Source: Pseudovirgaria hyperparasitica (taxonomy: Eukaryota; Ascomycota; Dothideomycetes; Acrospermales; Acrospermaceae). Taken from it: a stretch of DNA of 64,000 nt. Position 1 is the stretch's first letter. Each line of letters begins with the position of its first letter. A program made the position numbers and the translations under genes. The notes under the pieces were generated by a model. The model did not search any database and was not told where the DNA came from. It was given only the letters and a program-made list of their open reading frames with translations. Below, one piece after another: positions 3,172 to 41,975 of the stretch. The DNA lies in contig NW_022985565.1 in the NCBI RefSeq assembly GCF_010093815.1, positions 727,841 to 791,840 of the forward strand. Reading direction: 5' to 3'.

Positions 3172-3240
<69 letters not shown>

Positions 3241-35908: not shown

Positions 35909-37108
35909 ATGGACAAACATAGTTCCTTCTTTGCTCGTGCAAAAGACCAAGGACTCGTATGGGATGGAATCGCTTTCGCCCCTATTGCTGGACTCGGTAA
36001 CGGTGTCAAAGCAACCCGGCCACTGAAGGTAACTTGCCTATCATCATGCAGTTGCTCATGTATTCTTGTACCGGGGACTTGCTGAATTGATTTTTATCAG
36101 ACTGGAGATGTGGTATTAACGGTCCCGGCGTCGACCTTCCGTACACTTTCAACATTATCACCTCGAGTAGTCGAAGCTCTCCCCGATCATATGTCACTGC
36201 ACGGCCGTCTAGCTGCCGATCTCTCCCTCGACAATACCCCTGAATTCGCACAATGGAGTGCCTTGTTTCCCAGTATATCCGACCTTGAAACAGCCCTTCC
36301 CTTCTTCTGGCCCAAAGCCATTCAGGAGCTGCTCCCAGCACCAGCCAAGGCCTCCTTGGAAGCGCAGACAAAGCGCCTCAACAGAGACAAAACACAAGTC
36401 GTTCGTGAGCTGCCGGATATACCACCGTCTACCTTCACGTACTACTGGATGGTAGTCAACTCCCGCTCCTTCTACCTCCCCACGCCCGAGATGCAAGCCC
36501 TGGACTTCATAGACCGCCTTGTGCTCATGCCAGTTGCCGACCTGTTCAACCACGCCGATGCCGGCTGCCGCACGACCTTTTCGCCCGATGGCTACCAGTT
36601 CGCCGCTGATCGGGATTACGCCGAGGGCGAGGAAGTCAAGATTTGCTATGGAGACCACACGAACGATTTTCTCTTGGTCGAGTACGGCTTTGTGCAACGG
36701 TTCAGTCGGTGGGATAAGGTGTTTCTAGACGACGTCATCCTACCGAAGCTTGATGTACACCGCAAGACGGTATTGAACCGCCGGAAGCTGCTTGGTAGTT
36801 ACGAGATCGGACCAGAGATGCTTGGGTGCCCCCGGACACAAGCGGTGCTGCGACTATTGTTCTGTGGGAGAGGACAATGGGAGAAATTCGTAAGGGGAAA
36901 CAGCGATGGTAAGGAGAGCCAGGCCGACGCTAATGCGTTGCTGGAGACTCTTTTGGCCGAGTATGAGGAGCTTGTGAATCAGCGTATCGAAACGATCGCA
37001 GGGGTTCATGATGGCTTAGAGGCTCAAAGACGTGTTCTCATGGATAGATGGAAACAGATCGAATTGGTTGTGTCACTCACTAGAGAAGCGCTAAGGGCGA
37101 AGATATAG
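35909..37108 (+). CDS. SET-domain protein lysine methyltransferase (RKM/SETD6-like)
   Basis: Two exons, 35909-36028 and 36101-37108, give 375 residues. The 72-nt intron joins VKATRPLK to TGDVVLTVPAS. SET marks: the N-terminal GLVWDGIAFAPIAGLGNGVK (the GxG of the SET start), FTYYWMVVNSRSFYL, LMPVADLFNHADAGC (the NH motif that builds the AdoMet pocket) and YAEGEEVKICYGDHTNDFLL-VEYGFV (the EE-x-Y-G-x-x-N-x-x-L-x-x-YGF block). The C-terminal region is helical, as in the Rubisco-LSMT substrate-binding domain. Members methylate lysines of ribosomal or other non-histone proteins; the substrate here is unknown. Convergent with the secreted repeat protein (200 bp apart). Confidence 0.85.
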
Positions 37109-37308: not shown

Positions 37309-39953
37309 TCATACCACCCCAGTTTTCCCAACCAGAATCCCAGTTGGCTCCGCGTCCCGACCTCCCAGCTTCACCGTCACGGCGCTCTGCAACCCTATGG
37401 TTTCGAAGTTGATGGAATGTCCGTTGATCATATAAGGCGCATTCTGCTCGCCAGCGTCAGCAGGAGGAGCGCCCGTTGGCGAGGGGGCTTTCTCGCTTGT
37501 CGCAGGCGACATGACCGAGGGCTTGGATTCCATGGCGGGCTCCTTGACTGCTGAGGGAGTCTCTTTGGCAGACTCCACCATGATTGAAGAGGGTGTTTCC
37601 AGTGCCATGGATGGGCTCTTGACAGAGGACTCGACGACTGCTGAAGGTGTATAGACAGCCGAGTCCGCTGGGGTAGACAGCGTATGCATCATCATAGGTA
37701 TACTGGACTTCATCATGGTCTCGTGAACCATCGGTGGCACAAGAGAAGACCCGACAGACACCACCGGCATAGAAGAATTTACAAACATATACGGTGCCGA
37801 CGAAGGCGGACTATGCACAGTGAGCAGCGTCGAAGCTGGTGGCGGGGGCAGCATTTGCGAATAGTGGCTCGCGATGACAGGGGGTACGGGCGCTGGGTAT
37901 GCGAATTGGCCGGGTGGACACATGCACTTGCAGTCACAAGAGTTGTGCATTGCTTGGGTTGGGACAGGGACTGGAGCGTATGCGACGGTGGATTCGGCGT
38001 TCACGATTGCGGCGGAGGAAGGAGCGAGTTCGAAGGATAATGGGGGACCGGACTGAAGATTCTGTGATTGTTAGTGTGATTTTGATTGAGTATTTTCGAT
38101 TGAGGATGTGCACTTACTGCCGTGGCTTCGGGTGCGCCGGCCTCAGTGACAGTCACGACGTGAGTGATTGACTGGGTTGAGACGTAAGGGGAGCCCTCTT
38201 GCGTGACAGTCACTTGCAGTTCCTCAACGGAGGTTACCAAGACCTAAAAGTGTCAGAGAGCGGGTTTTCGTAGGTACGTTCATGCCTACAGTGTGTTCCA
38301 TCACAATGGTTTGTTGGACAGTGTGCTCCATCAGTTGTGTGGAGACAAGTTGCTCAGTCTGAACAACTTCAATGGTCTCAGTGGCCTGGTCTTCCACTGT
38401 AACGGTATGTTGCTGAACCTCCGTCTGGATAACTTTGACAATTTCCGTGGCTTGGTCCTCGACCGTGACAGTCTGTTGTTGAAGATCAGTCACAATTTGC
38501 TGTTGAACCTCGGTCTGAACGAGAGTATGTTGCTGCACATCTGTAACTTTGATAGTCTGCTGTTGAACCTCAGTCTGTACTACATGCACTATCTCTGTCG
38601 CTTGGTCCTCAACGGTGATTGTATGTTGCTGGACTTCAGTTTGCACGACCTGGATGGTCTCGGTCGCTTGATCTTCGACCGTAATGGTATGCTGCTGTAG
38701 TTCAGTTTGTACAATCACTTCAGTCGCTTGGTCCTCGACGGTAATGGTTTGCTGCTGGATATCGGTGACCGTCTGCTGTTGAATTGAGATCTCAGTCTGA
38801 ATGACATGGACTGTCTGCTGTTCAACATCCGTAACCTCAACTGTTTGCTGCTGCACTTCGGTCTGTACAACATGGATAGTCTCCTGCTGAAGCTCTGTTT
38901 CGACGGCGGTCACGGTCTGCTGTTGAACCTCGGTGGCCACGATGGTCTCTTGCTGAGTTTTGACATCGGTCTGAATTTGAACTTCTACCTGCAGCTCAGT
39001 TGAGACTTGGAGCTCGGTCTGGACGTGTACTTCTGTCTTGACATCGGTTTCAACGGAGAGCTGAATCTCTGTCTGTTTTTGAATTTCAGTCTTGACCTCA
39101 GTTTGCTTCTGAACTTCGGTCTGGACCTCGGTCTGGACTTGCAACTCGGTTTGCACCTGTGTCTGCACTTGCAGCTCAGTCTGAACAATCGTCTTCTCGA
39201 TGAATTCAGGAACCTTCTCCGTTTGCACGTGGATTTTAGTCTCCAGGATAGTTTCAGGGATGATCTCAGTTTTATGGATAATCTGAGGGGGCGCGGTTTC
39301 CACAACTGTCTGGTGCATGACTTCGGTCTGGACGATGGTTTGCGGGACGACCTGGGTTTCCACCACGTGTTGGACTTGAGTCTCGACTACGTGCATTACT
39401 TCAGTCTGTACGATGGTTTCCGGCACTAGCTGCGTCTCGACGATGTGTTGGATCTGAGTTTCGACGACATGTTGCAGTTCGGTTTGGACGATGGTCTCTG
39501 GGACCATTTGTGTCTCGACCATGTGTTGCACTTGTGTCTCAACCATATGCTGGACTTTTGTCTCAACTACATGTTGGATCTCGGTCTGAATGACGGTCTC
39601 GTGTATCGTCTCTGGAGGAGATTGCTCAGTGACGGTATCATGCACTACCTCGGTGACATAGTAATAGACAGGGGGAGGCGGCGGTGGTGGAGGGTGGTAA
39701 TATTCCTGTGATGGTTAGTGGAATCCAATTTGTCTCCAAGATTAGATCAACACACTGCCTATTGTTAGTGAAAGAGCACAATGTATAGTCAATTACAAGA
39801 CGCGTACCAGGTGGAGATGCATAGTCATCAGTAGGTGCAGCAAGAGTCTGTCAAGCTGTTAGTATGGTCCCCTACGTGAGAAGCACTGCGTGTACAGACC
39901 AATGGAAGAGCAATGAGAAGCGCAACGGCGCCGCTTGGGAGTATAGACTTCAT
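37309..39953 (-). CDS. Secreted T/V/Q/E repeat protein (orphan)
   Basis: Six exons in the preferred model: 39953-39900, 39847-39808, 39758-39754 (5 nt), 39705-38290, 38243-38118, 38061-37309, giving 797 residues. Start ATG opens a classical signal peptide (MKSILPSGAVALLIALPL, cleavage after TLAAP). Then YYHPPPPPPPPVYYY, and about 430 residues built almost only from T, V, Q, E, I and H: first PETIVQTE / HVVETQ-type units, then VQTEV short units, then 22-residue units QTEVQQHTITVEDQATE+IxVV. After it VTVTEAGAPEATA, a CDCKCMCPPG cluster and a Ser/Pro/Met-rich tail. Alternating polar and hydrophobic residues suggest beta-strands or a beta-solenoid (inference). No family recognised; cell-wall, adhesive or fibre-forming role possible, none shown. 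Almost no Lys, Arg or aromatics in the repeats, so strongly acidic. Confidence 0.78.
38290..39660 (-). repeat. Coding tandem repeats of the secreted T/V/Q/E protein
   Basis: At DNA level the exon is a patchwork of diverged short tandem repeats whose period changes along the gene: a long one of roughly 24 residues in the 5' part (PETIVQTE-xHVVETQ-xQHVVETQ), a 5-6 residue one in the middle (VQTEV), and 22-residue units in the 3' part (38330-38760) holding the motif TITVEDQATE. Units differ at synonymous sites, so the array is not freshly expanded but can still misalign and change length. Confidence 0.8.
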
Positions 39954-40892
39954 TATGGCTAAGAATTTTCGAGACGGCAACGAATAGAAGAAACAGTTAA
40001 ATTAATATATCAGACCAGCTGCAAATGAATGAAAGCGAAGGTCGGCTGGCCGAATATTAGATTGCTTTGATGGTAAAGCTCAAAGGTCAAAGGAAAGCAA
40101 AGAACGAGCGAGAGGCATGTGAGATGCAAACCCAAACACTATAGGAGTGTAGCGGAGTACCAGACGATAAATACAAGACTGTAGGCGAAGATGTGCAGGC
40201 TTCAAGGGCAAAGTAGCCCCAGTCTCAGCCATCTCGGTGAGTGATTACAGAGGATTGTTTGCCGTGTATACGCGGGCCATGGTCATAATGGCAAAAGGTA
40301 CAAATTCATGGGAGATCATGAGAGACACATGTCGCATTACTCTGGCACCTATACAATCTTAGCGACGTGCGACATAGACACGGTCTCAGACAGGTCTGAT
40401 CTGGGGCCTCGCTGGTGTTGTGAGACGGCCAAGGTGTGAATAGCAAGGCCTTGTTACAGGACGCGTTTCGGCTGATGCCCACCCGAACGATGGCTTGGAG
40501 TCTTTTTGGATTGGCCCCTTCAGCTTTGCCAGGACGAAATAAGATGCATATTCCTAATATTCGCGACTGTTATGATGTCTCTAATGTGTTGACGTCGGAA
40601 ATCCAACATTAGTGGCCATCCACGTGTTGGCATTGGATAGGGAGCGATACAGCCGATTGCTAGCGACCATCGGGGCCGTTTCCACGATCGATGTCGTCAT
40701 GATGGCGCCGTCATCGTTCCTACAACTCATCGGCCTTTGCGGGCGCAGAACTCACCGCAGTGACCTCACGACTTTCGCTGATACACTTGTAAAGATACTA
40801 TTTGAAGCCCGTAGAGCAGCTCCCCTGTCTTCAAACGCGCATTTTCAAAGACCTGACTGTAAGGCACAATAATTCTTAATCTGGTAATCAAC
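39954..40892. promoter_or_regulatory. Divergent intergenic region, repeat protein / DUF1295
   Basis: 939 bp between two outward-facing start codons, holding both promoters. No repeat and no convincing ORF (the 86-codon frame at 40612 has no family resemblance). Confidence 0.45.
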
Positions 40893-41975
40893 ATGGCGAC
40901 CCCTGTCCACGTCCTCGATGACTACTATCTGGCCATCACACTTCTCATCACCGTCGCATACCAACTCATTGGCTTCTCCATTGCATTTAGCCTCAAATTC
41001 GACAAGCTCACTGATTTCATGGGCGGGACGAATTTCGTCATCCTCGCAATCATCACCCTTGCCTTTAGCGGCGTCCACCACGCGCGCAACATAGTATGCT
41101 CGCTCTTCATCATGCTCTGGGGCGCGCGCCTCTCCGGCTTTCTACTCTTCCGCATTCTCAAGACGGGCAAAGACGACCGTTTCGATGATAAGCGCGACAA
41201 ATTCTTCCCGTTTCTCGGCTTCTGGATCTTCCAAATGTTGTGGGTGTGGACGGTCAGCCTGCCCGTGACGATTTTGAATTCGCCAAAGGTTACGCAGTAC
41301 GCACAACCCGACTTTGGCACGGGGAGGGATATTGCGGGTGTGGTGTTTTGGGCCGTGGGCATGCTGTTGGAGAATACGGCGGATGTGCAGAAGTATCGGT
41401 TCCGGAGTAAGCACCAGGGTGATGGGTCGGTGTGCGATGTTGGCGTGTTCAGCTGGTCGAGACATCCAAATTACTTCGGCGAGATGCTGATTCAGTTTGG
41501 TATGTCGAATCTCATGGGAACTCCATGTTTGCTTTACTGACCATCCGTAGGTATTTTCATGATCGCCGTATCGCCCGCAGCGATCGGCTACGTGCATGGC
41601 GGCGCCTACAAAGCCCTCTACGCGTCCATTCTCGGTCCATTTTTCTTGACCCTTCTACTCATGTTTGTATCCGGCCTAACACTCCAAGAGCGTCCTGGAG
41701 CCAAGAAGCGATACGAGAAAGGCAACAACTGGGAGGCCTATGCACGATGGCTTCACCGAACCAGCATTCTGATTCCTTTTCCGCCGCAATTTTACGCACC
41801 AATGCCCGTCTTTCTGAAGCGCACCATTTTCCTCGAATTTCCAATTTATGTTTTTGATCCCGCCAAACATGCCGACTCGAGCAAGACACAGTCAAACGCG
41901 GAAAATGGCAGTGTGCGGCAGAATGATAATGCTGATGGGGCGAGGCCGAGTGATGAGCGAGGTCTCCGAGCTTGA
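40893..41975 (+). CDS. DUF1295 membrane protein (steroid 5-alpha-reductase-like superfamily)
   Basis: Two exons, 40893-41499 and 41551-41975, give 343 residues. Six or seven membrane segments: YYLAITLLITVAYQLIGFSI, FVILAIITLAFSGVHHA, IVCSLFIMLWGARLSGFLLF, FPFLGFWIFQMLWVWTVSLP, DIAGVVFWAVGMLLENTADV, MIAVSPAAIGYV, LGPFFLTLLLMFVSGL. The signature GVFSWSRHPNYFGEMLIQFG, spanning the intron, is the NADPH-binding R-H-P-N-Y-x-G-E motif of DUF1295. The superfamily includes 3-oxo-5-alpha-steroid 4-dehydrogenase and ergosterol Delta14/24 reductases; the DUF1295 branch itself has unknown substrate. The C-terminal 40 residues (Asn/Asp/Arg-rich) are soluble. The start is the only ATG in frame before the first span. 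Confidence 0.87.

Follow-up and report, generated by a model that had tools for sequence, protein, structure and literature searches.

A predicted secreted V/Q/T/E repeat protein of Pseudovirgaria hyperparasitica with a candidate structural role in the hyphal wall or extracellular matrix

The gene and its product

The window analyzed here, a 64,000-nucleotide stretch of Pseudovirgaria hyperparasitica DNA, lies on contig C17 of an assembly that totals 35.0 Mb and has 59 contigs. A gene of five exons runs on the minus strand from 39953 to 37309. The spliced model has four introns, all GT-AG, and encodes 796 amino acids (Table 1). Its third exon sits inside a 496-codon stop-to-stop frame on the same strand. 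From N- to C-terminus the product carries a signal peptide, eight prolines, a V/Q/T/E repeat region of approximately 450 residues, a CxCxCxC cluster and a tail rich in Ser, Pro and Met. The spliced model thereby confirms the gene anatomy proposed in an earlier note on this DNA (signal-peptide-like start, eight prolines, repeat chain, CDCKCMC and Ser/Pro tail) and adds the Met-richness of the tail.

CTAAC-type branch sequences are present in introns 1, 2 and 4, and intron 3 has CTGAC only. The donors of the exon 1-2 join (GTCTGT) and the exon 2-3 join (GTAATT) are of weak consensus and were chosen because the alternatives give stops, a 28-base intron or the wrong frame. These two joins rest on the reading frame and are less certain, the frame-forced 3' end of exon 2 (donor GTAATT) being the least certain border in the model. 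Open frames on the other strand were rejected as the real gene because the differences between repeats sit at codon position 3 of the minus-strand frame. A scan for promoters and terminators of bacterial type, a scan not applicable to a fungus, returned chance numbers.

Table 1. Features of the repeat gene in the window; residues are numbered in the 796-residue model
Feature	Window coordinates	Strand	Description
Exon 1	39900..39953	-	Start codon and signal peptide core (MKSILPSGAVALLIALPL)
Exon 2	39797..39847	-	Signal peptide end and short linker (TLAAPTDDYASPPGTRL)
Exon 3	38290..39705	-	Tyr/poly-Pro spacer and V/Q/T/E repeats; 472 aa, net charge -65
Eight-proline spacer	39670..39693	-	Read from the sequence
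Block A, residues 74-208	39187..39591	-	26-residue units: 8-residue HVVETQVQ-type pieces and a VPETI piece
Block B, residues 209-286	38953..39186	-	Chain of VQTE-like pieces; 78-residue alternation with two exceptions
Block C, residues 315-486	38353..38868	-	22-residue units (VQTEVQQHTITVEDQATETIQV and variants, of which some differ in length)
Exon 4	38118..38243	-	Linker, VTVT-type sequence
Exon 5	37309..38052	-	247-residue tail including the stop codon; 53 Ser+Thr, 37 Pro, 16 Met
CDCKCMC cluster	37918..37938	-	The only four Cys of the protein

Two neighbors lie on the plus strand. The frame at 36086-37108 has a weak SET-domain match (E 0.00049, below the Pfam cut-off), and 40863-41540 encodes a DUF1295 protein (E 3.4e-48). 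Nothing ties either to the repeat gene. Elsewhere in the assembly, the sole scored 5.8S rRNA match (39 scored of 965 candidates) is at C40:7200-8400, where the rDNA, compared with typical rDNA, reads as if altered in the manner of repeat-induced point mutation.

The N-terminus, MKSILPSGAVALLIALPLTLAAP, reads as a normal signal peptide by eye and by hydropathy (Kyte-Doolittle mean of 1.99 over residues 5-20). After residue 25 the highest 19-residue mean is 1.06, and the last 20 residues (KLGGRDAEPTGILVGKTGVV) average 0.11, so both a membrane span and a GPI-type end are unlikely. A C-terminal GPI attachment signal with a hydrophobic end was not found by hydropathy. Dibasic pairs (KR, RR, RK or KK) are absent from the entire 796-residue model, and a Kex2-processed peptide precursor was rejected for that reason. 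The single N-glycosylation sequon is at residue 641, in the tail. All cysteines of the protein (residues 588, 590, 592 and 594) are in CDCKCMC. Hydrophobins have eight conserved Cys, whereas the repeat protein has four in total, in one CxCxCxC cluster.

Exon 3 is composed largely of Gln (19.5%), Val (19.1%), Thr (17.8%, 84 residues), Glu (13.8%) and Ile (7.8%), and has no Cys, Gly, Asn, Arg or Trp. The repeat chain had been described as nearly free of Lys, Arg, Cys and aromatic residues, and this is borne out in exon 3 by 12 Lys in 472 residues, no Arg, no Cys and six aromatics, namely one Phe and five Tyr, the latter all within the first 16 residues of the exon. These tyrosines and the proline spacer fall in EYYHPPPPPPPPVYYY (window 39658-39705), which resembles the Tyr/poly-Pro cross-linking motifs of plant extensins and is a candidate cross-linking site.

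Repeat units, their age and their predicted conformation

Exon 3 was split into three blocks, named A, B and C in this analysis. Self-identity was 0.48 at lag 26 in block A (shuffled mean 0.13) and 0.44 at lag 22 in block C (shuffled mean 0.16), compared with maxima of 0.28 and 0.29, respectively, at any lag from 1 to 59 in 300 shuffles. In block B self-identity at lag 10 was 0.42, against a shuffled mean of 0.16 and a top shuffled value of 0.37. Exon 3 repeats well beyond chance. The short VQTE-type units and the 22-residue VEDQATE unit reported previously are indeed present, with lag identities above all shuffles. At the DNA level Tandem Repeats Finder reported a 78-base unit with 74% matches and detected no array over block C. 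VEDQATE occurs five times and has a different DNA spelling each time (5/5).

Synonymous and non-synonymous differences were compared between copies. Three block-A units are 77–81% identical in protein and differ at 72–92% of synonymous and 11–13% of non-synonymous sites. Three in-register block-C units are 77–82% identical, with differences of 84–102% and 8–14%, respectively; values exceed 100% because the count is approximate. A fourth in-register block-C unit, at residue 315, is more diverged (50–59% identical to the three others; synonymous 61–99%, non-synonymous 27–32%). One 20-residue block-C unit was left out for length. The block-C row at residue 443 does not align in register; the four pairs that it forms were dropped, as was the block-C total of that comparison. 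By codon position 1/2/3, three chosen in-register units per block gave 15/2/46 differences in block A (78 compared codons) and 10/2/46 in block C (66 compared codons). The combination of 77–82% protein identity with near-saturated synonymous sites indicates that the repeat is old and that its amino acids are held at the protein level. Picking units for their likeness lowers the non-synonymous figure and does not explain the saturated synonymous sites. Recent DNA slippage was rejected as the origin of the repeats since synonymous sites are near saturation.

The earlier note had proposed that alternate residues of the chain are hydrophobic and polar. For scoring, V, I, L, M, T, F, Y, A and W were assigned to one face and Q, E, K, H, D, S, R and N to the other; placing Thr on the apolar face favors the run count, and the controls were scored by the same rule. 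With two exceptions allowed, the alternation in block B runs for 78 residues; the longest such run among 500 shuffled versions of the exon was 29. The longest exception-free run is 41 residues versus 17 in shuffles, and runs of at least 6 cover 36% of exon 3 (shuffled mean 8.8%, maximum 19.1%). Among the 165 stop-to-stop frames of at least 100 residues in the window, the next-best alternating run is 25 residues and comes from a TG microsatellite read as HTHT. A perfect (TG)32.5 microsatellite read as HTHT lies at window 3175-3239, inside an open minus-strand frame.

Hydropathy power in block B reaches 45.3 at period 2.0 (95% shuffled level 7.0). Taken with the run counts, this strongly supports a strand-forming pattern in residues 209-286. 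The other blocks behave differently. The strongest hydropathy period of block A is 4.4 (P 0.008), its local helix-type moment is 1.68 (shuffled 1.32, sd 0.09), and strand-like character outweighs helix-like character in only 20% of its 8-residue windows. The corresponding share in block C is 53% (shuffled mean 43%, sd 7), and no hydropathy period is significant either there (P 0.18) or over the whole of exon 3 (P 0.078). The proposed alternation therefore holds strictly for block B, but block A leans helical and block C is mixed, with weak support for a strand-forming pattern. Its helix-like local moment notwithstanding, block A shares its VQTE/VETQ pieces with the strand-like block B.

Single-sequence AlphaFold prediction of exon 3 gave a mean pLDDT of 41.2, with helices at exon residues 31-118 (block A and the residues just before it) and strands beyond. 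These helices, the above-shuffle moments of block A and the best match of exon 3 among PDB sequences, a designed helix bundle aligned to exon residues 34-119 in block A (E 0.036), would fit a helical rod without strands, in which block A, and perhaps more of the chain, would be coiled coil or amphipathic helix. We consider such a rod improbable. Its helices have pLDDT below 50, and hydrophobic correlations in block A are negative at lags 3 and 7, unlike those of a heptad coiled coil. An amphipathic helix cannot be reconciled with block B, where power in the alpha band is 1.1 versus 45.3 at period 2. Val, Thr and Ile are also poor helix formers.

A second AlphaFold run took as input a 77-residue block-C stretch in an alignment with three further stretches of this repeat. 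The model has a mean pLDDT of 52.5 and a pTM of 0.27, and shows, at low confidence, four strands of 14–17 residues, interrupted at or close to each of the three VEDQATE copies; the remaining four models of this run scored 37–39. It lends slight support to one long strand per 22-residue unit. The beta-solenoid suggested in the earlier note, with each 22-residue unit forming one coil, is unsupported by these runs. A coil of 22 residues would be plausible in length, and the sequence of the unit suggests three strand-like pieces. However, neither low-confidence run (pLDDT 41 for the whole exon, four strands for the block-C stretch) contains a confident coil, unit length varies along block C, and none of the 256 Foldseek matches to the 77-residue model at E <= 10 reached significance (E <= 0.001; best 0.088). 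Gly and Asn, which are common in tight turns, are both absent from exon 3. We regard a solenoid as the least probable of the structures considered.

Relatives and known wall proteins

The earlier note recognized no family, and the searches agree with it within the collections covered (Pfam, NCBIfam, PHROGs, PDB sequences, viral and prokaryote genomes), where nothing significant was found. The 796-residue model has no Pfam match at E <= 1 and, on the same search, no recognized N-terminal ligand-binding domain. At E <= 10 Pfam gave one match for exon 3 (E 6.4) and seven for the 77-residue stretch (best E 0.12), all below the Pfam cut-offs, and none for two pieces of the tail. NCBIfam had no match for exon 3 or exon 5, and PHROGs none for exon 3. 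Exon 3 matched four PDB sequences at E <= 10, and a profile of the repeat matched one (E 0.82). The earlier note would have counted a match to any known family of enzymes or coiled coils against its proposal; no significant one was found, the best PDB match having E 0.036. Viral scans gave 2 pattern matches with the repeat exon and 105 with the repeat alignment, and prokaryote scans gave 23 with the repeat exon and 16 with the tail, none leading to a tblastn-confirmed relative; fungal genomes are excluded from these collections by design, so that little about fungi can be read from the outcome. The literature searched, which lacks most subscription journals, yielded no account of a fungal repeat of the VQTE type.

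No second copy of the gene was found in the 35-Mb genome among the top-ranked candidates, which alone were scored (25 or 26 with the repeat exon); a paralogue that has diverged may have escaped detection. Matches of the repeat exon at E <= 10 were the exon itself and two weak places, and the tail matched only itself. The place with E 0.85 was rejected as a paralogue by eye, being a 245-residue frame without such repeats, and the place with E 5.2 has an internal stop. A DNA pattern for [VIM]QTE[VILMF]Q matched 19 times, 13 in the repeat gene and 6 scattered, compared with 6 matches of the backwards control.

As a positive control, the PF00399 (Pir) profile matched the genome 13 times, at two other loci and never at the repeat gene. 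The loci are C17:145354-145614, with five matches over the cut-off, and C20:600344-600712, with eight. The first has QISDGQPQAP-type repeats and, by eye, a hydrophobic GPI-like C terminus. Pir proteins resemble the repeat protein in being secreted and repetitive with Gln in the repeats, and their units, 17–26 residues in the examples given in PMC8975586, are similar in length to the 22- and 26-residue units here. A Pir-like wall protein would have its repeat Gln joined covalently to beta-1,3-glucan, each molecule cross-linking several chains. The repeat protein has no DGQ (Pir repeats require DGQ[I/V]Q, or minimally DGQ), no PF00399 match and no Kex2 site between signal peptide and repeats in a dibasic-pair scan of the model, and its four Cys are all in one cluster. 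Linkage of the Pir type is accordingly very improbable. It ranks, with the helical rod and the solenoid, as less likely than the reading we prefer below.

The earlier note also offered an adhesin as a candidate. Yeast adhesins of the Als type are likewise secreted and have a low-complexity Thr-rich region and strand-forming segments (PMC9306254). The repeat protein differs in being acidic and Gln/Val-rich, with no recognized N-terminal binding domain and no GPI-like end. Neither a binding domain (Pfam, E <= 1) nor an anchor (hydropathy) was found, which leaves the adhesin candidate unsupported.

Rep1, the repellent of Ustilago maydis, is a parallel in behavior. Its peptides form surface-active amyloid-like fibrils on hyphae, and its repeats, of 34–55 residues, are cut apart at Kex2 sites (PMC4617103). 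By description, both are secreted fungal repeat proteins, and the fibril behavior of Rep1 is that proposed below for the repeat protein. The repeats of Rep1 are separated by Kex2 sites, whereas the repeat protein lacks any dibasic pair and does not belong with it on that count.

A possible structural role outside the cell

The best explanation, to which we give a probability of roughly 45%, is that the gene encodes a structural protein secreted to the hyphal wall or extracellular matrix, whose repeats may form extended, self-associating strands. The surface fibril or matrix role proposed in the earlier note is partly supported. The secreted, repetitive character of the protein and the strand pattern of block B favor the role; the solenoid and adhesin versions of it are not supported.

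We envisage export by the signal peptide with no retention in the membrane. The repeat region would be largely in extended strand conformation, and strands of neighboring molecules would line up laterally, burying the V/T/L/I face and hydrogen-bonding through Gln side chains on the opposite one, to yield fibers or a gel. The 65 net negative charges would keep the protein soluble at neutral pH; since fungi often acidify their surroundings, part of this charge would be lost there, favoring assembly outside the cell. The tail and its CDCKCMC cluster might tie the protein to other wall material through disulfide or metal. Several observations count against the strand reading, namely the low confidence of both AlphaFold runs (41.2 and 52.5), the helix-like block A and the absence of a significant hydropathy period in block C and over the whole of exon 3. 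The net charge of -65 in 472 residues also opposes assembly at neutral pH. Amyloid-type stacking is possible and is in tension with the O-mannosylation expected for a Thr-rich secreted fungal protein.

O-mannosylation underlies the main rival, which is the one nearest to the best reading. Sugars on Thr would make the chain a straight, separated stalk or spacer with no sheet, either holding the Cys/Pro/Met-rich tail off the wall or bulking up the wall glycoprotein layer. The 84 Thr of exon 3 and the 53 Ser and Thr of the tail would suit this, as would the low AlphaFold confidence, which is usual for stalks. The stalks of Als adhesins are low-complexity, glycosylated and extended (PMC9306254). 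Known stalks, however, are rich in Ser and Thr, and in exon 3 three other residues equal or nearly equal Thr in abundance: Gln (19.5%), Val (19.1%) and Glu (13.8%). A mere spacer leaves the Gln content, the exact alternation of block B and the kept VEDQATE and VETQ words unexplained, and no GPI-like end would fix the stalk to the wall. We consider such a stalk or spacer somewhat unlikely.

The wall or matrix reading has a more specific form. The protein may be a natural fiber protein with one near-uninterrupted amphipathic strand of approximately 78 residues as its core, forming a pH-controlled, Gln-zipped sheet between molecules and kept by selection. Fully extended at 0.34 nm per residue, block B would be approximately 27 nm long, and it has no Gly, Asn or Pro turns. 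In this form the strand would be unable to satisfy itself by folding and would therefore assemble between molecules. Alternating polar and nonpolar stretches are reported to occur in proteins less often than expected and, in designed proteins, to promote amyloid-like assembly (PMC2680634). The designed P11 peptides are reported to form beta-sheet gels in which Gln hydrogen bonding matters; net charge limits their assembly, and high molecular charge inhibits larger structures (PMC10297975). The two-faced strand pattern, Gln hydrogen bonding and charge-limited assembly make P11 an analogy to the repeat protein and not a family member. P11 peptides are synthetic, have 11 residues and carry an aromatic center, whereas the run here is natural, 78 residues long and free of aromatics. 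By this analogy the protein could be a natural counterpart of designed self-assembling peptides, a view we hold to be doubtful, as we do the single-strand fiber itself.

The repeat protein is real, old and unusual. Secreted repetitive proteins of the fungal wall and matrix are a known class, from which the length and purity of the alternating block set it apart. Should it be a glycosylated stalk only, it would be one more uncharacterised repetitive wall protein. If the strand reading is true, it would offer a template for pH-switched protein materials. A 78-residue alternating run kept in a secreted natural protein would allow one to test directly if such sequences are employed purposefully by fungi, as fibers of the wall or matrix.
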